23,858 bases of DNA, taken from a virus. The stretch spans positions 42,605 through 66,462 of IMG/VR virus record IMGVR_UViG_3300003267_000135. The stretch is one strand, 5' to 3'. Under the pieces are notes generated by a model. It saw only the letters and a program-made list of their open reading frames with translations, had not been told where the DNA came from and did not search any database. The position numbers and the translations under genes were made by a program. Below are positions 1-23,858 of the stretch, in pieces. The first letter of the stretch is position 1, and the number at the start of each line of letters is the position of its first letter.

Positions 1-411
1 CTCCATCAGCCGCAGGCCGCAGCCGTAGTAGAGTTCGAACATGAGCCCGCGCGTGCCGGAGGTGAGCGCGAGTAATCGCTGCATTTCCTGCGGTGAGAGC
101 CAGACCGGCAGTCGGCGTGGAATGCGGGCACGTGACCATTGGCCCAGATCGCCGATCTCAATTTCGAGCACCTGTTTGAAGAGGAAAACAGCGGCGTTGA
201 GTGCGAGTGCCTGAGTCTTGGCGGCAACGCGCGGGGCCATTTCTTCGAGCCATCCGCGGATGCGATCCGAGGGCTTGGTGAATTCAGGGTGTGCGAGGCA
301 GAAGTCTAGAAACTTTCCGATTTCTGCGCGGTATCGCTGCTCGGTCTTAGGCTTGAAATGCCGTGTCTGGCATACGGCAGCGACGCGTTTGAGGATGTCG
401 GCTTTTTTCAT
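1..411 (-). CDS. intI: Integron integrase IntI-like tyrosine recombinase (N-terminal 137 residues, partial)
   Basis: The minus strand is open from an ATG at 409-411 to the left edge. IntI enzymes recombine attI with folded single-stranded attC sites to capture or shuffle gene cassettes. The visible part holds the SAM-like core-binding domain (HFKPKTEQRYRAEIGKF near residues 18-34, then an AHPE turn and the VAAKTQALALNAAVFLFKQVL helix), then the RRLPVWLSPQEMQRLL segment that opens the catalytic domain. The window ends at ELYYGCGLRLME, which contains the first catalytic arginine (residue 135). The YG.GLRLME form and the adjacent attC sites favour IntI over XerC/D. A good AGGAG lies three bases before the ATG. 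The IntI-specific insert and the HxxR and tyrosine motifs are off-window, so integrity cannot be judged. Confidence 0.88.
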   Translation of the reverse strand, partial: MKKADILKRVAAVCQTRHFKPKTEQRYRAEIGKFLDFCLAHPEFTKPSDRIRGWLEEMAPRVAAKTQALALNAAVFLFKQVLEIEIGDLGQWSRARIPRRLPVWLSPQEMQRLLALTSGTRGLMFELYYGCGLRLME

Positions 412-2287: not shown

Positions 2288-3517
2288 ATGTCGTGCTCTC
2301 CGATTCCGATCGACCTTGCGACTCAGTTTTTCAGTCGTGACCCGACGCGCCTCTATGGCCCGATCGCGAAGTCACTTTTGACCGGCGTTCCTTACATCAG
2401 CGTTCTCCGCAGCGGCACGTTTCCGGCCGCGGTGGCGGCGACGCTCCTTTCCGTGGCGCAAGGGCGTCCGCGGATGGGCACTTCGCTGGCGAATCCGTCG
2501 TTCACGTCGATGATCGACTTGTGCGGCAGCGGTTCGCTGGTCGTGGACAAGAACGGCACGAACCAATACTCCTACGTTGCCGAGATCAACCAGGGCATGT
2601 CGGACAAAATCTGTCTGAATCAGGGTTTCAGCGCGTTCATGGGTTCGCTCACGGCGCAGTTGGAAGCCTATCAGACGGGCGTAACGGAGGTGATCAACGC
2701 CGACGTGCGTTATCAACTCTATCTGCGGTCCGGCGTGAAGGCCGTCGTTCAAGTCGGCGTCCAGCCGACGGCAATGATCACGGGCGGCGAGTATCAGATC
2801 GACACGCCGGTTCCGGCGATCGAGTCCGATGCGCGGCTCACGCAAAACCTGTTGCAGAGCTTCAACCGCTACATGCGGTCGGCACTGCGGGCGAAGCCGT
2901 TCGGTGCGGGGGCGCAGGCGCATTCGCGCTTGATCGCCTCGCCGGACGAGCTGGACGCCATCCGCGAAGACCTCGGCGGCGCGGCTGGTCCCGGTGGCGC
3001 AAACATCGTGCCGCTCGGTCAGGTTGCGGCCGGTGGCAACAAGATGGCGATCGACGCGCTGATCGGCTACCTGTTCGAGCCGCTTTACCGCGGCGTGCAA
3101 TACGGCGAAGACCCGATTCCGCTGCGCCTGAACTGGAACGGCGCTGGCTACGACCCGGTTGACCCGAACGCCGACTACTCGGCGACGGTCGGCACGGTCG
3201 CACAGGTCAGCTCGGATTGGCTGGAAGCGAGTCACGAAGTCGCGTTCCTGTTCTTCGACGGCTCGTTTGAGCGCCAAGTTCCGGCCCCATGGACCGGCGA
3301 GGGCAAAATTCGCTTCGCCCGGCAAATGTTCGGCGGGGACATTCAGTTCCTCAATCACCCGGACATGGTGTGCAATCTGTTCAGCGACTACGGCGTGATG
3401 GCCTACCGCATTGGCCGCGCGCTGCGTCCGCTGTATCCGTGGTTCGTTCTCCCCATCATCTACAAGCGATGCTTGGACGAGGCGAACCTCGACACTTGCA
3501 CGGGCGTTAGCGGCTAA
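2288..3517 (+). CDS. Major capsid protein (409 aa)
   Basis: First gene of the virion module and the best candidate for the shell subunit, probably HK97-fold. Support comes from its length, typical of podovirus capsid proteins, and its C-terminal pattern: an EVAFLFFDGSFERQVP strand, a GGDIQFLNHPDMVCN segment, then a conserved-looking C-terminal part with PLYPWFVLPIIYKRC. It is followed by a strong terminator and a T7-like order of tail and internal virion genes. The N-terminus (MSCSPIPIDLATQFF) has no signal peptide. There is no Shine-Dalgarno; ACTAAA precedes the ATG. Portal and scaffold genes, which precede the capsid gene in T7-like phages, are absent upstream. The family assignment rests on pattern and position rather than a diagnostic motif. 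Confidence 0.72.
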   Translation: MSCSPIPIDLATQFFSRDPTRLYGPIAKSLLTGVPYISVLRSGTFPAAVAATLLSVAQGRPRMGTSLANPSFTSMIDLCGSGSLVVDKNGTNQYSYVAEINQGMSDKICLNQGFSAFMGSLTAQLEAYQTGVTEVINADVRYQLYLRSGVKAVVQVGVQPTAMITGGEYQIDTPVPAIESDARLTQNLLQSFNRYMRSALRAKPFGAGAQAHSRLIASPDELDAIREDLGGAAGPGGANIVPLGQVAAGGNKMAIDALIGYLFEPLYRGVQYGEDPIPLRLNWNGAGYDPVDPNADYSATVGTVAQVSSDWLEASHEVAFLFFDGSFERQVPAPWTGEGKIRFARQMFGGDIQFLNHPDMVCNLFSDYGVMAYRIGRALRPLYPWFVLPIIYKRCLDEANLDTCTGVSG

Positions 3518-3647: not shown

Positions 3648-4814
3648 ATGGCAACAGGCGTTCTGATCTCGTCTTTTACGTATGTCGGAGTGCCGCCGTT
3701 GAGCGCGGTATTCGGGTTTTTCAAAACCTCGTCAGGCGTTCAAATCCAGCGGATTCAGATTTCGGCGCAAACGCCGCCCGTTGGTGGCAACATCACCGTT
3801 CAGCTCGTTGATGAGGCTGGAAACGCCTACGTTGGCGCTACTGTGGCGCTCCCAAGTGGATCGCCATATTACGATCAGCCGCTTGCGGCCCCGATTTCGC
3901 TAGGACTTGCGAAAATCGTTCGAGCGCAGATTACGGGCGTCGATCTTGGGGTGGCATCAGACCTCACCGTCAATTTGATTGGCGCAACAGCGCAAGGCAC
4001 GACGCCGCCCAGCGGATGCGGGCCGTCGAATTGCCAGCCACCGCAGGCACAACTTCTGTTTTTTCAGGGAAACGTCCAACAGCAGGTTGCCGAAGCGGCG
4101 GCGGAGGCAGCAGCGGCGGCAGCAAGTGCCACCGCGGCGAATGACTCGGCCGTTGCAGCGGCGTCTTCCGCCAGTGCTGCCGCGGGTTCTGCCAACGCAG
4201 CGGCGGCAAGTGATACGAACGCCGCCGCACAGGTTGTCTTGGCGGCGGGCTACGCGACGAATGCCAATAACGCAGCGGCAGCAGCCAACACGTATGCCGG
4301 ACAGGCGGCGACGAGCGCCACCAACGCGGCAACTAGCGCCGCCGAAGCGGCGGCAAGTGCTGCTGCCGCCAATACAAGGGCCGCGGCAACGATCGGGCTC
4401 ACAGTAGGAGCCACGCACACGATTCCCGACGCGGCTGAAACCGTGGTCAATTGGGACGGGGCCAATTTCGACGATGCGGCGTTCTGGAACTCGGGGGCTC
4501 CAAGCCGGATCACGGTTCCGGCAGACGTTACGCGGGTTCGTCTCAGCGCCGGCATTCGCTGGCCGTCTGCGGCAACGGGCTCACGCAAGATCACCATCAA
4601 GAAAAACGGCGGTGAGGCGTGGGCGACGTGTGATCTTTCCAGCGTCGATACCGGCAACGGCACGATTTTGACGCCAATCATCGAAGTGATCCCCGGCGAT
4701 TACTTTGAGGTTTATGTGGAGCAGGATTCCGGAGGCCCACTCGACTTGGAAACTTCCACGGTCAACGCCAACCGCAGCAATTTCTTTTGTGTTGAGGTGA
4801 TGGGGCAGTCCTGA
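3648..4814 (+). CDS. Fibre protein: AQTPPVG module, Ala-rich stalk, beta head (388 aa)
   Basis: A three-part adhesin-like protein. Residues 1-111 form a beta module with IQRIQISAQTPPVG that recurs in the gene at 21719. A short Cys/Pro linker (SGCGPSNCQPPQ) follows. Residues about 145-250 are an alanine-dominated, heptad-like stretch typical of a trimeric coiled-coil stalk. Residues 250-388 resemble the jelly-roll heads of phage fibres (VVNWDGANFDDAAFWN, then VPADVTRVRLSAGIRWP and ITIKKNGGEAWA). It probably decorates the capsid or tail and binds the host surface. It sits between capsid and adaptor genes, an insertion relative to T7. There is no Shine-Dalgarno; the start context CCGATTATTACACC resembles that of the next gene. 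Confidence 0.65.
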   Translation: MATGVLISSFTYVGVPPLSAVFGFFKTSSGVQIQRIQISAQTPPVGGNITVQLVDEAGNAYVGATVALPSGSPYYDQPLAAPISLGLAKIVRAQITGVDLGVASDLTVNLIGATAQGTTPPSGCGPSNCQPPQAQLLFFQGNVQQQVAEAAAEAAAAAASATAANDSAVAAASSASAAAGSANAAAASDTNAAAQVVLAAGYATNANNAAAAANTYAGQAATSATNAATSAAEAAASAAAANTRAAATIGLTVGATHTIPDAAETVVNWDGANFDDAAFWNSGAPSRITVPADVTRVRLSAGIRWPSAATGSRKITIKKNGGEAWATCDLSSVDTGNGTILTPIIEVIPGDYFEVYVEQDSGGPLDLETSTVNANRSNFFCVEVMGQS

Positions 4815-16600: not shown

Positions 16601-19076
16601 CAAACGCATTGAACAGCGGTTGGCGTGGAACGACGCCAACGCCAGTGATCGCAAGGTTGTCGGCGACTGGACGCACGCCAAGGTTGCCGCGGATTTGGCG
16701 AAACTTGAAGCTGAGATCGGCGCACCACGCGTTGCCGAGTTGGACAAGATCGCGAGCGGCATCATGCAGACCGAGGCCGACGACGCGTTGCGGTTGCAGG
16801 TTCAAAGCGGCCGACTGTCACAGGAGTCCTACAACCGCATCAAGTCGGAGAACGATTTCTACGCGCCGTTCAAAGTGCTCGATCACTTGGAAGGATTCGA
16901 CACGGGCGCGTCGCGCGCGGTCGATACGCGGGACCAACTGGCAAAGGTCATCGAAGGCATCCACAGCACGGATTTCCATATTGAGAATCCGTCGGTTGCT
17001 CTGGCGCAGCACATTTTCAAAGGCCGCATTCTCGCCGAGAAAAACCTGAAAATGCTGGAGCTGGCAAAGCTCGCCGACAACGACGTATCGGGAACGTTGA
17101 TTCGTAAACTGCAACCTCACGACGAGCCGCGCCGTGGTTACGAGACGGTGAACTATTTCGACAACGGGACGCCGATGCGTCTTGAGGTGAAACCCGATGT
17201 TGCCGAAGCCGTGAAGGGGTTGAACGCCACGCAAGCGGGATGGGTCGCCAACTTCGCGCGCAAGGCGGCAGGCGTCTTCCGATTTGGAGCGACTACCGGC
17301 AACGTCGCGTTTCAGCCGGTCAACTTCACGCTGGCCGATCAGCCGAACGTCTGGCTCGTCAGCAAATACGGCCTGAAAGGCGCACAGGACATTTGGCGCG
17401 CACCGATTGATTTTATCCACGGCGGTTACGCGTCGATTTTCTCAAACCTGCTCGGCGGCGAGGGCGGGGCGTTCGCCAAGGTCGGCGCGCACGTGCCCGG
17501 CGTGAAACAGGCCAATGACGCAGCGGCAAAGCTCGCCCGCGAGTTCTATGAGAGCGGTGCGGCTGGCTCCAACTGGCAGGAGTTAATCGACACGATGGGC
17601 GGAACCGTGGACGAAAAGCGTTTGCTCGGATCGCTCAAGCTGGGTGAACACAGCCTGCTTGATTCAATCGGCTCCATCAACAAGGCGATCGAGGAGTCGT
17701 CAAAGATGATGGGATTCAAACGCGGTCTGCGCATTGAGGGCATCGACAAGATGACGCCGGCACAGGCCGAGGAGGCGTTGAAGAAAGTCGTCGCCGAGGT
17801 GCGCAATTTCGCGGGCTCGCCGGACTTCTTCCGCAGCGGTTGGGCAGTGCGCGATCTGAACAACCTTGCGCAAATGTTCCTGAATGCGCGCGTGCAGGGC
17901 ATCACCAACCTGACGGGACGACTGGCCGGCGCGGACGGCGTTGGACCGGCACGCGACGCTTGGTTGCGCATCGCCGGCACGATCGGCACAGGCGCGGCGT
18001 ATCTATGGTATCGCAATCACGCGCCGGAAAACGAAGCGGATTACAACGCGCGCAGCGAAGCCGAGCGGAAGAACTACTTCCTTTTCCCACGCTATGACGA
18101 GTCGGGCAAGCCGCTGTATAGCACCAACGAGTTTGGGCAGAGCGTGCGGGAATACTGGCGTTTGCCGAAGCGCGAAGTGCTGCAATACATGGGCAACACC
18201 GTGGAATCGGCGCTCGACTTCGCGCACGACAAAGACCCGGATGCGGTGAAGAACTACGGCGTTCAGATGCTCGAAAACTTGAGCCCAGTGAACGTCGGCG
18301 GGCGCAACGCACGGGAGCGATTTGAGAGCGTGATCGGCGGCGCAAACCCGTTGGTCAAAGTGCCGTTTGAGCAAGTGAGCGGGCGCGACACATTTCGGCA
18401 TCGCGACATTCTCCCGACCGATGATTTCAAGCGCGCGTCGCCCGAGAACCAATTCACCGAGACAACGCCAAAACTGATGGTGAGGGCGGCGCACGCGATG
18501 CCGTCATTTGCGCCGGACAATCTGCGCAGTCCGATGATGCTGCAAAACCTCGTCGAAGGCGCGAGCGGGCGTGTGCTCACGCAGTTCTTGCCGAAGAATC
18601 AACCGGAGGGACGCGATCCCACAGCGGCGGCGGTTGCCGGCAATCCACTGACCGCACGCATGGCCGGTTCGCTTTACGTGGACCGCAGCAAGGAGCAGGA
18701 GCAGATCGATACGCTGAAGCGTGCGGAAGCCGACACGCGCGTTGAAAAGAAGCGGGGCGCGAAGGAGACGATTTCCGAGTTGAAAACCCTGTCGGCTCCG
18801 GAGGTTTCACAGCGGCTCAAGGACATTGCGACCAATCGCCCCGAGCTGTTTGAGCAGATCATCACGGAGATGAACAAGTCCGAGCGCGACGTGATTGATC
18901 GGCAGTTGCTTGGTCTTGGCGTGAAGAACGGCGCACGGGCGCAATTCATCGTCGGCCAACTGCGCACCATGCAGCCGGACAAGATCGCGGATTATCTGAA
19001 GCGATTGAGCCAAGGCGATGAGGCTCCGCTGACGCCTGAAGTGTTTGAGCAAGTGACGGCGCTACTTGGGAAATGA
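13608..19076 (+). CDS. Giant ejection / large polyvalent-type virion protein (gp16-like, 1822 aa)
   Basis: The largest gene, in the T7 gene 16 position and longer than gp16 (1318 aa). In order: a soluble start; small-residue-rich hydrophobic segments near residues 80-115 and 190-215; a long charged, Pro/Ala-rich linker to about residue 530; a small beta domain at about 642-704 (VGGKFKIDGEKFSIVGVEE); and glycine-zipper-like segments near 829-880. From about 895 to 1480 the region matches my recollection of large polyvalent protein-associated domains (LPD38-like), including GVFRFGATTGNVAFQPVNF and DLNNLAQMFLNARVQG. A helical C-terminus follows. I see no N-terminal lytic transglycosylase of the kind in T7 gp16. 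The stop overlaps the next start (ATGA). AAGG lies two bases before the ATG. Confidence 0.68.
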   Translation: MDVFDQVATAEPKADAFDVAEQELSRQQKAADRRGEAEKLLNRFKPVESPYDDLYATLGSRAGHELTKAALLAGGKKTDIALGVLAPLAATVASAPIPIPGSTAAAGASSSAAADALVQAREYLRGERDDFSKGRLLASGVTGAVVPPGVKAASTPLLTAAKTVGIRGAQGAGLGAAHEAISEAIDEGKLHGGAILSAGLLGTLVGAGFGTLEGAAPHIIKALRGKTVAEAKKVIAEELPKLDANEALSAAEKAEVRGVLEGAQKRIDDLLGVKPDTVAPTAGDSALARQANAEAALGGEAPITRLQKADERAAALGAARAEDVKASLLARQLGEGESTVLTGDEVQNQLTKLETRPGESRRERARLLAKQAQATAPGDEVAAELSAQADRVLRAEGNEGQGPTPVRRPASAEKPAQSEAVPQTEKPPVEAAPTGQPVSSEVRPDTVPTQATEAVAPTKSASNREIADQKRRIRDMERQAEKLDAIDPTRANDVRDKLEAERLKLAGMVANKKEGARPTVGVGPDGTRDILTDIAEYVGTLRTAGDSESKARLNVLQGIARRLRGGIEGAEWSDAIETLNSIGARSNSEAGAYNFTTAAELEDAISNALAAREKARGSLKVENYQQRVEEGFIAANEEDAARLLASGKGRQIEEIGVGGKFKIDGEKFSIVGVEETANGTYEYIVKDGHMFRVPEGTVVTPDKGKVTHAKRLSKASTDFLPSEDLPQSPQGGAEITPNVSPEGAAASKAEGFRLESVTNEQQAAEAAAKRERLLAQERKQKIETLAEKPLTGDSSDVGQGTLLAGDEDLFSGPSAETLAKKDQRGSIGTGLLFSTPLQSALGGVAGGVYGSTQGATPDERRQNMLLGAAAGAAGGAGLRIAGKAVLSRMGAKPVYEIDKHLAPPPLPKITEQLDKVPSTIKAATLSIYAPLDKLVEDVRKAASWLYVIPKRELPLSREFEQVAGAAGKAGQDVKDYVRNVLDAVGADDRQNFDRLVALKRIEQRLAWNDANASDRKVVGDWTHAKVAADLAKLEAEIGAPRVAELDKIASGIMQTEADDALRLQVQSGRLSQESYNRIKSENDFYAPFKVLDHLEGFDTGASRAVDTRDQLAKVIEGIHSTDFHIENPSVALAQHIFKGRILAEKNLKMLELAKLADNDVSGTLIRKLQPHDEPRRGYETVNYFDNGTPMRLEVKPDVAEAVKGLNATQAGWVANFARKAAGVFRFGATTGNVAFQPVNFTLADQPNVWLVSKYGLKGAQDIWRAPIDFIHGGYASIFSNLLGGEGGAFAKVGAHVPGVKQANDAAAKLAREFYESGAAGSNWQELIDTMGGTVDEKRLLGSLKLGEHSLLDSIGSINKAIEESSKMMGFKRGLRIEGIDKMTPAQAEEALKKVVAEVRNFAGSPDFFRSGWAVRDLNNLAQMFLNARVQGITNLTGRLAGADGVGPARDAWLRIAGTIGTGAAYLWYRNHAPENEADYNARSEAERKNYFLFPRYDESGKPLYSTNEFGQSVREYWRLPKREVLQYMGNTVESALDFAHDKDPDAVKNYGVQMLENLSPVNVGGRNARERFESVIGGANPLVKVPFEQVSGRDTFRHRDILPTDDFKRASPENQFTETTPKLMVRAAHAMPSFAPDNLRSPMMLQNLVEGASGRVLTQFLPKNQPEGRDPTAAAVAGNPLTARMAGSLYVDRSKEQEQIDTLKRAEADTRVEKKRGAKETISELKTLSAPEVSQRLKDIATNRPELFEQIITEMNKSERDVIDRQLLGLGVKNGARAQFIVGQLRTMQPDKIADYLKRLSQGDEAPLTPEVFEQVTALLGK

Positions 19077-21661
19077 GCACAACCACCGATTTTTGCCTGA
19101 CGACGATCGGCGTTGCTCCCGTGCCGCCCGCGTCGGGAACAACGCTGGTTCTAGCCAGCGGAGTAGCGACATTCCCGCCCGCTCCATTTGACGCCGCGAT
19201 CTGGCCCAACGGCGTGCTGCCCAATCGCAGCAATATCGAAGTCGTCCGGGTCACAGAGGTCAATTTGCTGACAGGCCAATTCCGGATCATTCGTGCGCAG
19301 AATCAAACCACGGCTAAATCCGTGTTGGCCGGCTGGCAGATCGCCACCGTGATCGCGGAATTGGCGCTCGCCAGCGATGGCGTCGGGTTTGCCAATCCGA
19401 TGACGGCGATTGGCGATATGATCTATGGGCGCAATGCGGGAGTCGCGACACGCCTGCCGGGGAACACAACCCTACGCCGCAAGTTTCTCGCTCAAGCCGG
19501 GACGCTTCCGGTCAGTGCGCTGCCGCCAGTGTGGACGGATGGGCCGCGGTTCAACGTCCGCGATTTCGGCGCGGTGGGCAACGGCACCACGGACGACACG
19601 GCGGCAATCAACGCCGCTCGGGACGCGCTCGTAGCGGCTGGCGGCGGTGCGTTGTATTTTCCGGGTGGCAGCTACCGCACGGACGGGATTACGGCGATTA
19701 CGAGTTGCCCGGTGCATTTCGTCGGCGATGGCTTTTCGACTGCGACGATCATCAACTCGCACCTGACCAATCCCACGATTCAGGTGACAGGTCAGTTCAT
19801 GTCGATTGCGTGGCTCAAGTTCACTTGCACGCAAGACAGGATGAACGGCAATCCGTTGTTCAACATTGATGGCAACGGAACGGACGCGCTGGTGTATGTC
19901 TCCAATTGCCAGATACGCGCCAATGCGGACTGCTTCAAAGCATATCGCTGCCTCGCCAATTTCTCGCAAGTCACAATCAAGTGTCTGCGGCAAGGCGGCT
20001 ATGCCCTATGGTGCAAGTCGGCTGGGTTAACGGCGGTAAATTGTCTGTTCTTCACGGGGGGAACCAATCAGCCGCCGCTTTGGTTGCAGGGAACGGCCAC
20101 GTCGATTTCGATTGCAAACTGTGGCATCGCTGGGGCCGGTCCGCGCGCGTCCTACGTGCCGTCGTCCATCACAAGCACGGCGGGAAATTTCACGGTCAAT
20201 TTCTCGGTGAATCACACGTTCGCCGTGGGCGACTGGATCAACATTTCGGGAGTCACGCCGAGCGCGTATCGCGGCTTTTGGCGGATCGCGTCCAAGACCG
20301 CTACGAGCGTGACAATCACGTCGCCGATCAATCCCGGCAACGCCACGATCTCAATCGCAGCAACGGCATTGGTGGCGGATCAACGCTATGTCATCGGTGC
20401 GTTGGGAACAACCAACTGGACGACGGTGGGCGCAGCGGTCAACGCGGTCGGAATCCCGTTCAAGGCGAACGGGGCCGGCACTGGCAGCGGCACGGCAAAC
20501 GGGACGGTCTATTCGGTTTCATGCTCGGCGCTGATCGACAATGAGCTTGGGCCAATCAACGAATCCCAGATCACCGGCTCTCAATTCGGCGCGTCCGGAT
20601 ACCCCAAAGACCCCCTTTCCGTTGGTTTATACGTGGACGGACGGCGCGGGGATGGCGCGATAGAGGGGTGGCAACTCACCGCGTCCTACGTGGACATTGG
20701 CCGCGTTGGCGTGCTTCTGACAGGGAAAGGTCCCGCAGGCGCGGGCACAACCGGACGTTGGCTCATTGACTCGTGTTTTTTCGAGGGCAATGCGGGCGAT
20801 GGGGATTCCACCATGCTTGGACAGGTCTGGGTGGAGCAGTGTCCCGGCGTGACGCTGCGCGGCTTGAAGGGCAGCGACGCGGCAAAAGACTCGGACTGCA
20901 AGGCGCTCTATGTTTATTCCGACGGCGCGGCTCCGCTCTGTGATGGATTGAAGGTCACGGATTCGGAGCTGGGGACGTGTGAGAACTGGACAAGCGTGGG
21001 AGCGACCAACCTTGCCAAATACGGAGCGGCATTCGAGGGCCGGATCAATTACCTGACGTTCGCCAATAATACGGTCTGGGGAAAGACATCCCCGGTGCTG
21101 AACACAGGACCGGCAATTGATGCCACAACCGTAGTTAAGAGTTCCAATAATACATTTTTCACGGGCACCGTGTTTCCAACCACGCCGATTTATGTGCCGT
21201 TTTTCTCGAATGACGGCGGTGTTCCGGTCGGTGGGATCGTGCCATACTCGGGAGCTTTTGCGGATATTCCCTCCAATTGGGCATTGTGCGATGGTTCTGG
21301 CGGAACCGTTGATCTCCGAGATCGATTCATCCTTGGCACCGCTACCGAGGCCGACGTTGGCACCACGGGTGGAACCGCCCAACACAAACATGCCGCTGGA
21401 ACGCTTGCTGCCGATAGTGCCAGCGCCGGAACGCCAGCCGGAACCGTCACCGTCAATACGACGACCGCCAATGACACCGCGACAACGGGCGCGGGAGCGC
21501 GGGTTACTGCGGTCACAGGTGCGTCGTTTGCGGGCACTGCAATGGCCGGTCACACGCATACCATTTCCGGAAAGACTGCGGACGCGGAGGATGGCGGCGG
21601 GTCAACAGCCGATGTTCTGCCGCCATGGTTCAAGCTGGCGTTCATTCAACGCATGTCGTGA
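19073..21661 (+). CDS. Tailspike: virion-anchor, pectate-lyase-like helix, tail collar domain (862 aa)
   Basis: It occupies the T7 gene 17 (tail fibre) position. Residues 1-110 resemble a widespread virion-anchoring module (GTTLVLASGVATFPPAPF, NIEVVRVTEVN and IIRAQNQTTAKSV). From residue 160, FNVRDFGAVGNGTTDDTAAI is a textbook pectate-lyase-superfamily start, with YFPGGSYRT after it. An inserted module near 432-480 (YVIGALGTTNWTTVGAAVNA) is a common phage fibre unit. Residues 717-862 form a tail collar domain (GGIVPYSGAF, WALCDGSGGTVDLRDRFILG), ending with His-rich HKH and HTHTISG strands. It likely recognises or cleaves surface polysaccharide. Translation is coupled to the previous gene through ATGA. 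Confidence 0.85.
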   Translation: MSTTTDFCLTTIGVAPVPPASGTTLVLASGVATFPPAPFDAAIWPNGVLPNRSNIEVVRVTEVNLLTGQFRIIRAQNQTTAKSVLAGWQIATVIAELALASDGVGFANPMTAIGDMIYGRNAGVATRLPGNTTLRRKFLAQAGTLPVSALPPVWTDGPRFNVRDFGAVGNGTTDDTAAINAARDALVAAGGGALYFPGGSYRTDGITAITSCPVHFVGDGFSTATIINSHLTNPTIQVTGQFMSIAWLKFTCTQDRMNGNPLFNIDGNGTDALVYVSNCQIRANADCFKAYRCLANFSQVTIKCLRQGGYALWCKSAGLTAVNCLFFTGGTNQPPLWLQGTATSISIANCGIAGAGPRASYVPSSITSTAGNFTVNFSVNHTFAVGDWINISGVTPSAYRGFWRIASKTATSVTITSPINPGNATISIAATALVADQRYVIGALGTTNWTTVGAAVNAVGIPFKANGAGTGSGTANGTVYSVSCSALIDNELGPINESQITGSQFGASGYPKDPLSVGLYVDGRRGDGAIEGWQLTASYVDIGRVGVLLTGKGPAGAGTTGRWLIDSCFFEGNAGDGDSTMLGQVWVEQCPGVTLRGLKGSDAAKDSDCKALYVYSDGAAPLCDGLKVTDSELGTCENWTSVGATNLAKYGAAFEGRINYLTFANNTVWGKTSPVLNTGPAIDATTVVKSSNNTFFTGTVFPTTPIYVPFFSNDGGVPVGGIVPYSGAFADIPSNWALCDGSGGTVDLRDRFILGTATEADVGTTGGTAQHKHAAGTLAADSASAGTPAGTVTVNTTTANDTATTGAGARVTAVTGASFAGTAMAGHTHTISGKTADAEDGGGSTADVLPPWFKLAFIQRMS

Positions 21662-21667
21662 TTCGGA

Positions 21668-21696
21668 TTGAATACGGAATTTCCTGATACTATCAG
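21668..21696 (+). promoter_or_regulatory. Possible sigma-70-like promoter with palindrome
   Basis: TTGAAT (21668-21673) and TATCAG (21691-21696) are 17 bases apart, each matching four of six consensus positions. The -10-like box is half of a perfect palindrome CTGATA-C-TATCAG (21684-21696), which could be an operator. It lies in one of only two sizeable gaps of the phage block, so a separate transcript for the following fibre and lysis genes is plausible. The match is modest. Confidence 0.3.
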
Positions 21697-21718
21697 CCAG
21701 AAATAATCCTAACCGCCC

Positions 21719-22270
21719 ATGAGCCTTTTAGCACCAATCCAAGCCGGAAACACCGAAGGCGTGAAGTGGGCAAAACTGCAACGCTGGATGCGTCAGGCCG
21801 TCGATAATGCCGGCATCTCCTACACCATGAGCTATCCACTTACCGACATTGATCCGAGCGATACCGAAGGCGTGAAATGGGCAAAGCTCGGCGCGTGGAC
21901 ACAACTCCTTGCCGCGAATATCGTGCCCGCGGGCGGTGGCGGCGGCGGTCTCATCACGAGCGCAGTGCTCACAGGTGCGGCGGCGGTGAATGATATTGTT
22001 GGATACTACGCAGCTCCCGCGGCGACCACCATCAGCCGCGTGCAGATCGCGGCGCAGACTCCCCCTGTTGGCGCGGCGCTCAAAGTTACACTGGTGGACG
22101 GCAGCGGCGTCTCACTCGGCGAAATCGCCACGTTGGACGATGGCGCATCGTTTCAAGAAACCGTTCTTGGCACGCCACTCGTCCTCGCGCCGGGCGAAGT
22201 CGTGCGGTTCAAAATTACCCAAATCGGGTCAGGAACGTCGGGCGGCTACCTCACCATCAATCTGCTATGA
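21719..22270 (+). CDS. Short fibre-like protein with AQTPPVG module (183 aa)
   Basis: Residues 1-60 hold two copies of a TEGVKWAKL-x-x-W unit 37 residues apart. A glycine hinge (PAGGGGGG) follows. Residues 79-183 align over their whole length with the N-terminal module of the fibre gene at 3648 (RVQIAAQTPPVG, LKVTLVDGSG, LAPGEVVRFKITQI, YLTINLL). It is probably a structural or receptor-binding component sharing an attachment partner with that fibre. The stop overlaps the next gene start as ATGA. The start lies 58 bases after the tailspike stop, with no Shine-Dalgarno but an AATAATC upstream. Confidence 0.6.
   Translation: MSLLAPIQAGNTEGVKWAKLQRWMRQAVDNAGISYTMSYPLTDIDPSDTEGVKWAKLGAWTQLLAANIVPAGGGGGGLITSAVLTGAAAVNDIVGYYAAPAATTISRVQIAAQTPPVGAALKVTLVDGSGVSLGEIATLDDGASFQETVLGTPLVLAPGEVVRFKITQIGSGTSGGYLTINLL
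21749..21889 (+). repeat. Imperfect repeat encoding TEGVKWAKL units
   Basis: Two related segments, beginning at 21749 and 21860 and 111 bases apart, encode NTEGVKWAKL and DTEGVKWAKL. Third-codon-position differences (GTGAAGTGGGCAAAACTG against GTGAAATGGGCAAAGCTC) show the protein motif rather than the DNA is conserved. This argues for an old duplication kept by selection. Confidence 0.75.
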
Positions 22271-23172
22271 AAACACCCCTCATATTTTTCGCTTTCATCG
22301 CTTCGCCCCTGTTTGGCGCGGTCGCCATTCCTCCTTCGGACATTAGCCCGCTCGCGACCGGGACGGTGTTGGGGCGTTCCGCCGCGGGCAGCGGTCCGTC
22401 CTCTGCGTTGACCACATTGCCGAGTCCGGTTCAAGACAACATCACGCGGCTTGGGACGGTTACGAGTGGCACGTGGAATGGGGGCGTCGTAACTGGTCAA
22501 TACGGCGGCACTGGCGTAGCCAATACCGGAAAGACGATCACGCTCGGAGGAAACTTCACCACGTCGGGTGCATTTGCGACGACGTTGACCGTCACAAACA
22601 CCACGACTGTTACGCTTCCCACGTCCGGCACGCTGGCGACAACTGCGGCCACTGTGCCATCAATTGCCGGCACAAGCGGAATGGTGCTCGTTAATGGAGG
22701 GACTGGATCGGTGGCAGGCTCGGCGGTCACGCTTTCATTGCCGACAGCGATCACCGGGTTGGACTCCATCCTGTTCTCGACGGACGCGAAGCTGTCGCGG
22801 ACGCAAGCGGGCGGACTCAAGATCACGCACCCGGCCGGCAACAACCCGGTGTTGAAGTTCGAGGAGACCGCAACGCTGACCGCCCAATTCGAGACATTCA
22901 GCGGCGACTTCTACGTTTCGACGACCCAAAGCGGCAAATCGATCATCTTCCGGACGGCGGCACTGCAAACGGCGCTGACGCTCAATTCGTCCCAAAACGC
23001 CGTATTTGCCGGGAGCGTCACGACTGCGGCCCCGAACGGCGGCACGGCGGCAGCGTGGAAGAATGGTGCTGTTCGAACGAGCACGGGTTTACTCGTCTCT
23101 ACAACGACGGGCATCCAACTGGATGTAGCGGGCACGCTCTACACGCTGGCGGTATTGACCACAAACCCATGA
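22267..23172 (+). CDS. Secreted-type fibre/adhesin-like protein with signal peptide (301 aa)
   Basis: The N-terminus MKTPLIFFAFIASPLFGAVA is a textbook signal peptide with a likely cleavage after AVA. The rest is T/G/S-rich and beta-stranded. It includes GTVTSGTWNGGVVTGQYGGT and TLTVTNTTTVTLPTSGTLAT, both typical of phage fibre repeats, and a C-terminal KNGAVRTSTGLLVSTTTGIQ region typical of distal fibre tips. A signal peptide on a virion fibre is unusual, since virions assemble in the cytoplasm. It may be a surface adhesin expressed by the infected or lysogenic cell, or the hydrophobic start may have another role. The start overlaps the previous stop (ATGA) and the stop overlaps the next start. 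Confidence 0.65.
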   Translation: MKTPLIFFAFIASPLFGAVAIPPSDISPLATGTVLGRSAAGSGPSSALTTLPSPVQDNITRLGTVTSGTWNGGVVTGQYGGTGVANTGKTITLGGNFTTSGAFATTLTVTNTTTVTLPTSGTLATTAATVPSIAGTSGMVLVNGGTGSVAGSAVTLSLPTAITGLDSILFSTDAKLSRTQAGGLKITHPAGNNPVLKFEETATLTAQFETFSGDFYVSTTQSGKSIIFRTAALQTALTLNSSQNAVFAGSVTTAAPNGGTAAAWKNGAVRTSTGLLVSTTTGIQLDVAGTLYTLAVLTTNP

Positions 23173-23585
23173 TACCGAATTGGCCCATTGCGTTTTTAGC
23201 GATTGTCACTGGTGTCACATTGTATGCCGACCCTATCGATCTCACACGTCAGCAGGCGAGCGATCTCTTCGTGGCGCTGCAACGGATCGATCCGGGACTA
23301 TCGCCTGATAACGTCGTGGTGGCGGCGGACAACATCACCGCGTTAAAGCCGATCGTCGAAGCACTCGACAAGGGCAAGGTGCGTGCGCAACGCGAAATGG
23401 ACGCACTCTCTGGCGAAGATCGCGCCGCAAAGGCGTGGGCGATTCGTGACAAGATCGAGGCCAAGGGCGATGAAGTGGTGAAGATCGATCTGACGCGCAT
23501 GGAAATCACCGCGGACGAGATCAAGGCCGCGAAGGTGCGGCCGGCTGACTTGGCTCCGCTGCGCCAATTTCTGAAGAAGAAATGA
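23169..23585 (+). CDS. Small exported hypothetical protein (138 aa)
   Basis: Start chosen at the ATG overlapping the previous TGA (ATGA, 23169-23172); the frame upstream is a shadow of the fibre gene. The N-terminus MIPNWPIAFLAIVTGVTLYA looks like a signal peptide with cleavage after LYA. The remainder is charged and helical (about residues 22-138), with DALSGEDRAAKAWAIRDKIE and a basic end LRQFLKKK. Its place before a membrane protein suggests a lysis-cassette member such as a periplasmic spanin-like subunit. However, there is no lipobox cysteine, and the idea is speculative. Confidence 0.55.
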   Translation: MIPNWPIAFLAIVTGVTLYADPIDLTRQQASDLFVALQRIDPGLSPDNVVVAADNITALKPIVEALDKGKVRAQREMDALSGEDRAAKAWAIRDKIEAKGDEVVKIDLTRMEITADEIKAAKVRPADLAPLRQFLKKK

Positions 23586-23858
23586 ACCTCCCGCGTTATC
23601 GCGCAGGACCCGTTGAATACTGGCTCGCGGCGGCGGGAACTGAGTTCATCAACGGCTTTATTGCCGGGCTCGGCGGCGGTGCAATTGCGGGAGCCGGGAG
23701 CGGTGTGGCAGCTTCATCGACCGGCCTTTGGTCGGGCGCTGACTGGATCACGCAAGTGTTGATTGCGATTTTCGGCGCAACAATCGCGGCACTCGGAAAC
23801 GGGTTTAAGACTCTCATCGTCTGGCATCACAGCAACCCATTTCCTAATCCGTGGCCCA
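23582..23858 (+). CDS. Small membrane protein, holin-like (92 aa seen, 3' end cut)
   Basis: The ATG overlaps the TGA of the preceding gene (ATGA). The product has two hydrophobic stretches separated by a short turn: about residues 20-45 (EFINGFIAGLGGGAIAGAGS) and about 52-75 (DWITQVLIAIFGATIAALGN). A proline-rich NPFPNPWP end follows. Two membrane segments, small size and the position after the tail fibre genes match the T7 gene 17.5 holin, which forms lysis pores in the inner membrane. It runs off the right edge without a stop codon, so total length is unknown. Confidence 0.55.
   Translation, partial: MNLPRYRAGPVEYWLAAAGTEFINGFIAGLGGGAIAGAGSGVAASSTGLWSGADWITQVLIAIFGATIAALGNGFKTLIVWHHSNPFPNPWP

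Follow-up and report, generated by a model that had tools for sequence, protein, structure and literature searches.

A fibre-like phage protein with a predicted signal peptide, encoded close to a holin-like gene, as a possible exported fibre tip

The window analysed here, a stretch of 23,858 nucleotides, is the terminal part, 23.9 kb long, of a virus record of 66,462 bases (G000:C1:42605-66462). Its last genes lie downstream of a tail spike or fibre gene and include the main subject of this study, a fibre-like protein of 301 residues. The features referred to below are, in window coordinates:

1..411, minus strand: end of a tyrosine integrase gene (whole gene about G000:C1:42035-43015; PF00589, 3.9e-21, on L010:2038-3015, minus strand)
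19073..21661, plus strand: virion-type tail spike/fibre, 862 aa (PF12708, pectate-lyase-like, 1.8e-11; PHROG tail spike matches)
21719..22270, plus strand: 183-aa protein, no signal by the home-made scorer, overlapping the 301-aa gene by ATGA
22267..23172, plus strand: predicted signal-bearing, fibre-like protein, 301 aa (open reading frame, scorer and fibre match)
22267..22326, plus strand: predicted signal peptide, residues 1-20, cut after AVA (score 5.70)
22450..22641, plus strand: fibre GGTG module, about residues 62-125 (79% identity to a full-length fibre; relatives in 6 viral loci)
22678..23169, plus strand: C-terminal part, residues 138-301 (relative searches gave none)
23169..23585, plus strand: charged protein, 138 aa, whose N-terminus may be a signal peptide or an anchor (overlaps the gene on either side by ATGA)
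23582..23857, plus strand: holin-like small membrane protein, allele A, open at the contig end (hydrophobic segments; relatives)

The two open reading frames singled out by an earlier, sequence-only reading of this DNA, 22267-23172 (301 aa) and 23169-23585 (138 aa), are present as that reading placed them. ATGA overlaps at 22267, 23169 and 23582 chain the genes of the 183-aa, 301-aa, 138-aa and holin-like proteins and thereby support the annotated start codons; in the 301-aa frame the next in-frame starts are GTG34 and TTG35. When positions 21500-23858 were searched for promoter-like sites (sigma-70 consensus only), one was found against a shuffle mean of 0.7, which is not above chance. Because the chained block lies directly before the holin-like gene and no promoter rises above chance, the 301-aa gene is more likely to be expressed with the late genes than in a lysogen. 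Upstream, the 862-aa spike or fibre, which also shows a weak match to collar domain PF07484 (0.0052, below the family cut-off), is likely to be the virion's receptor-binding protein. The 183-aa protein shares 39% identity with L011:14661-15107, a small protein encoded downstream of a related phage's capsid gene, and 34% over 109 aa with the product of window 3648-4811.

No end repeats are listed by IMG/VR for the 66,462-base record. The first and last 312 bases of the contig (L008:1-312 and window 23547-23858) share 122 identical bases, diverge in the middle and are identical again over the final 25 bases. The 122 shared bases comprise the end of the 138-aa gene and the start of the holin-like gene, and the divergence falls in the middle of the latter, the two ends being versions of one holin-like gene that look like alleles within the population. 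Since both ends carry holin-like alleles, the contig probably closes into a single map of about 66.15 kb, this being the simplest, albeit unproved, reading of the sequence. On a closed map the order would be 862-aa tail spike, 183 aa, 301 aa, 138 aa, holin-like protein, 69-aa lipoprotein and 120-aa transmembrane (TM) coiled-coil protein, beyond which the open reading frames are mostly on the opposite strand. The holin-like protein has two hydrophobic segments at threshold 1.4 and one at 1.5, the other allele having one and the L020 relative two; it is 57% identical to L008:36-332 and 55% identical to L020:5001-5321, and family searches gave no significant match. Among the genes searched, no endolysin was identified. 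The lipoprotein (L008:332-541) and coiled-coil TM (L008:538-900) genes overlap and resemble a spanin-type pair in reversed order, and the 120-aa coiled-coil protein matches phrog_7686, an Rz-like family, at E 0.25 only. Scans of the genome collection for a host with the holin-like and terminase alignments gave no match, and in the phage collection only Salinibacter phages match the terminase, at 22%.

Signal peptides were sought with a home-made, rule-based scorer, for which seven known signal peptides served as controls; six from E. coli score 5.35-6.98, and the seventh, PhoA, was missed. The N-terminus of the 301-aa protein, MKTPLIFFAFIASPLFGAVA followed across the predicted cut by IPPS, scores 5.70, within the control range, a value reached by 4/5000 shuffles of the whole protein and 12/5000 shuffles of the first 36 residues. 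It has K2, an uncharged hydrophobic run from residue 5 and A18-V-A20, with no second TM window at 1.4; as judged by the rule-based scorer only, these are the features of a protein secreted by Sec and cut by SPase I. The protein contains no Cys and no lipobox, which leaves unexplained how it would reach an outer receptor before lysis. Relative searches with its N-terminus found none, and the 10 records examined for P0001, G010 plus nine capsid relatives and many of them fragments, did not contain it.

The evidence is weaker for the neighbouring 138-aa protein, which the earlier reading also took to be exported. Its N-terminus, MIPNWPIAFLAIVTGVTLYA followed by DPID, scores 4.26; the n-region has no positive charge, Leu occupies position -3, and this score is reached by 58/5000 whole-protein and 145/5000 first-36-residue shuffles. 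Export of the protein, or an N-terminus that serves as an anchor, is plausible. With phrog_23683 the protein aligns colinearly but weakly (E 0.088), a match that was given no weight because 6/14 control genomes match that family, whereas 0/13 records, this contig included, do so at E<=1. The viral-contig scan returned no relative of the 138-aa protein.

Across L008, L009 and the window, 81 largely non-overlapping open reading frames of >=60 aa were scored, and three reach >=5.0 when scoring is confined to the frame's first start or its first ATG: the lipoprotein, the 301-aa protein and L008:6333-7223. The last was rejected, its score arising at an ATG 83 codons inside the frame. Once further starts are admitted, flags also fall on the 120-aa TM protein and on a few internal-start frames of this contig; the internal-start flags at L008:7438-8310, L008:18148-18735 and the capsid frame 2288-3517 were set aside. 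By our judgement of the sequences, the contig's credible candidates for export or signal anchoring would be the 301-aa protein, more weakly the 138-aa protein, the lipoprotein and the coiled-coil TM protein. With the other flags dropped by the same judgement, these four and the holin-like gene form one block once the contig is closed.

Beyond its predicted signal, the 301-aa protein carries a module shared with phage tail fibres, of the kind that have GGTG modules, S74 chaperones or Gly-rich tips. L038 encodes a full-length fibre of 559 aa with a Peptidase_S74 chaperone, and residues 115-176 of that fibre match residues 62-123 here at 79% identity, and related fibre segments occur in 6 viral loci at 38-70% identity. 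In the 5/6 loci with the fibre N-terminus in view (that of L003 is cut off), starts before the module, within the first 90 codons, score <=2.92. The N-terminal region of a fibre is the part that joins it to the virion. Where the full-length relative has 114 residues ahead of the module, the 301-aa protein has the predicted signal and about 40 residues, so that its predicted mature form would begin about 40 residues before the module without the longer virion-joining region; the signal thus sits where the full-length fibre has its N-terminal part. The module is homologous to those of virion fibres, but the N-terminal attachment region is missing, and Pfam and PHROG searches detected no virion-attachment domain. 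The sequence-only reading had described a textbook signal peptide joined to fibre-like repeats: a predicted signal and the fibre-like character are borne out, and one GGTG module is seen in place of a series of repeats. No phage match at E<=10 was obtained for residues 181-301, and for the whole protein Pfam gave no family and the best PHROG match was at E 0.43. Together, Pfam, PHROG, PDB and phage-record searches returned nothing significant for the 301-aa and 138-aa proteins, and AlphaFold models from single sequences (mean pLDDT 33.0 and 37.7) gave no usable fold, including for the C-terminal half of the 301-aa protein.

Signals on fibres of this type are rare. A viral-contig scan with the motif YGGTGVANTGKTIT returned at least 120 stretches, and all loci listed were examined. 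Among the matches listed, there are 120 motif open reading frames; in 93 the N-terminus is complete, these representing 72 different sequences over the first 60 residues, and four were flagged at >=4.2. Three of these flags (L086, L093 and L135) were rejected because they start at internal TTG codons within frames that begin normally, leaving a credible signal peptide in 1/93, that of L085. A second scan took in 41 whole or nearly whole contigs (40 of 50 records plus G010; eight longer than 60 kb and two already covered were omitted) and found a signal-like start in 16/1332 frames of >=80 aa; by reading, three of these are fibre-like, two in G010 and one in G018/L038. A scan of 151 loci, in which frames with a further TM segment were dropped, again returned G010 and G018/L038, plus L085. 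Of the capsid relatives L023, L024, L025 and L026, parts were read; L023 gave a single flag, at an internal GTG, and L026 two weak flags, and by reading none of these is a fibre tip. The open-licence literature, as far as its accessible parts extend, yielded no description of signal-bearing fibre tips.

A signal combined with a fibre-like protein was therefore found in three further phage contigs, G010/L020, G018/L038 and G011/L085, indicating that the combination in the 301-aa protein is not a single-contig oddity and strengthening the earlier proposal of a signal-bearing, fibre-derived product. G010 is a distant relative of G000 (holin-like protein 55% identical, terminase 27% over 477 positions). 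On L020 the order is a 181-aa signal protein, a 717-aa signal protein, then proteins of 90 and 165 aa and the holin-like gene. The 717-aa protein (L020 1994-4147) matches phrog_5313 (unknown function) at 2.3e-39 and proteins in 31 phage records, 23 of them from Streptomyces phages, several being annotated as minor tail or tail fibre proteins. Its 181-aa neighbour can be called fibre-like only from its look and from one weak match at E 0.02, and a scan for relatives returned its own contig only. The 264-aa signal protein of L038 matches, through residues 45-263, only positions 379-604 of the 690 in phrog_863, a tail-fibre PHROG, and also Gly_rich_2 at 2.1e-9; a 103-aa two-TM protein is encoded two genes later, and the same contig carries the ordinary 559-aa fibre. 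A relative scan with the 264-aa protein likewise returned its own contig only, with no match in the phage collection. L085, a siphovirus-like contig, encodes a 202-aa signal protein with a GGTG module and two further small signal-bearing proteins (57-506, 1793-2401 and 2962-3357 being the three loci), all among head-tail genes; their signals have Gln after the cut, which we take to be Bacteroidota-like, and for the 131-aa protein the phage collection yielded no match. Between the four phages, the signal proteins have no more than short modules in common, or none. They may be of independent origin, a common origin of the arrangement in G000 and G010 being possible.

An association with small two-TM genes was examined by counting proteins of 60-160 aa with two TM segments encoded within four downstream open reading frames on the same strand. 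At threshold 1.4, a background that leaves out G010 and G018 and includes near-duplicate contigs gave 38/876 for all frames and 3/28 for motif fibres (those with GGTGVA), against a hand count of 3/4 for the signal-fibre phages (Fisher p 0.015 versus fibres, 0.0004 versus all frames). At 1.5, where the G000 holin-like protein shows one segment, the corresponding values are 32/876, 2/28 and 2/4 (p 0.066 versus fibres). If G000 and G010 are treated as a single lineage, the count becomes 2/3 at 1.4 (p 0.060) and, at 1.5, either 1/3 (p 0.27) or 2/3 (p 0.037) depending on the representative chosen. With near-duplicate contigs in the background, a post hoc test and few cases, the tie between signal-fibre proteins and a two-TM or holin-like gene is suggestive only.

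Cor of lambdoid phages is said to inactivate the receptor functions of FhuA, and Llp, the protein of phages T5 and BF23, which is not known to be a piece of a fibre, would be the closest working model for the 301-aa protein. According to the available portions of one account, llp in T5 adjoins the receptor-binding gene, and Llp blocks the receptor, excludes superinfection and is presumed to lower the loss of progeny on debris (PMC4728585). As far as that account goes, the likeness lies in an exported phage protein (predicted export in the case of the 301-aa one) whose gene stands beside a receptor-binding gene; the difference is that Llp is a lipoprotein expressed early, whereas the 301-aa protein, lacking the lipobox cysteine of an Llp-type protein, is built from a fibre module. 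Tentatively, then, and as the best of the readings considered though less likely than not, we read the 301-aa protein as an exported, unattached fibre tip that would mask the receptor around lysis, Llp-like but fibre-built. This reading is drawn from a signal beyond chance, a fibre module that follows some 40 residues on (residue 115 in the full-length fibre), the chained genes, their place in one block with a holin-like gene, similar proteins elsewhere and the precedent of Llp. The protein would be the distal end of a fibre with a Sec signal in place of the virion-attachment part, translated, presumably late, with the late genes and coupled to the 138-aa and holin-like genes. It would be exported to the periplasm and released or exposed once the envelope fails, whereupon the tip may bind the phage's own receptor on the envelope of the infected cell and on debris, so that progeny would not be lost on the dead cell and re-infection would be prevented.

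The main result against a role timed to lysis is L085, whose signal proteins lie in the head-tail module away from lysis genes and favour a role in the virion. The 301-aa protein could likewise be a minor virion fibre, either passing through the periplasm, cut by signal peptidase and joining particles at lysis, or docking on the virion by its hydrophobic N-terminus. Its module is common to virion fibres and its gene lies downstream of virion-type genes; the N-terminal part of the full-length fibre is nevertheless absent, full-length GGTG fibres differ in having that longer part, and 92/93 complete N-termini among the matches listed carry no credible signal. Tailed phages assemble in the cytoplasm, which also argues against this explanation, and on balance we consider it doubtful. 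That the signal is a false prediction, the hydrophobic start of a cytoplasmic fibre fragment, would accord with a home-made score and an N-terminus for which no relatives were found, but the shuffle tests and the signal-like N-termini on fibre-like proteins of three further phages make it improbable.

The earlier reading had proposed that the lysogen might make the protein as an adhesin on its surface or to exclude other phages. Such a role would fit a signal peptide that directs export and also the probable lifestyle of the phage, since the integrase gene spanning the window start and an HTH regulator at L009:8099-8323 suggest a temperate phage with a likely lysogenic state. A glycosyltransferase-like gene (L010:1172-1912, PF13704, 3.4e-9) adjoins the integrase. 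The proposal, like that of a coat on the infected cell, found no support in the position of the gene, which is chained behind virion-type genes in the block before the holin-like gene, or in the sigma-70 search, and we regard it as very unlikely. An accessory function in lysis, whereby the 301-aa and 138-aa proteins would assist the lipoprotein and the coiled-coil TM protein in disrupting or releasing the outer membrane, draws on the adjoining holin-like, lipoprotein and TM coiled-coil genes. Fibre modules have no known part in lysis, however, and the spanin-like call is itself weak, making this the remotest of the explanations considered.

Phages can lose progeny to receptors on a cell that has just burst. 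If an unattached tip is indeed exported around lysis, fibre genes would be doubly used, for attachment and for receptor masking; genome sequences would directly reveal soluble proteins that bind receptors, and proof should be required before a fibre gene with a signal is annotated as encoding a virion protein. Phage-exported proteins that interfere with receptors are already known, and it is the fibre-made version that would be new. More broadly, the sequences might represent a class, not found in the accessible parts of the open-licence literature, in which at least three lineages have freed and Sec-exported a fibre tip by replacing its attachment part with a signal, in two of them beside a holin as a lysis-fired decoy or receptor mask; this generalization is unlikely as a whole.

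Another comparison is offered by the targets of diversity-generating retroelements. The surface-displayed cellular targets are described, in the available part of one report, as binding proteins that begin with a signal or a TM segment (PMC8144416), an organization resembling that of the 301-aa protein insofar as the latter binds a receptor. They differ in that the signal-bearing targets are cellular, the phage versions being without signal peptides in the accessible part of a survey (PMC6199706). A few signal peptides, untied to fibres, are mentioned for two Bacteroides phages in the portion available of a rumen-phage paper (PMC5723332).
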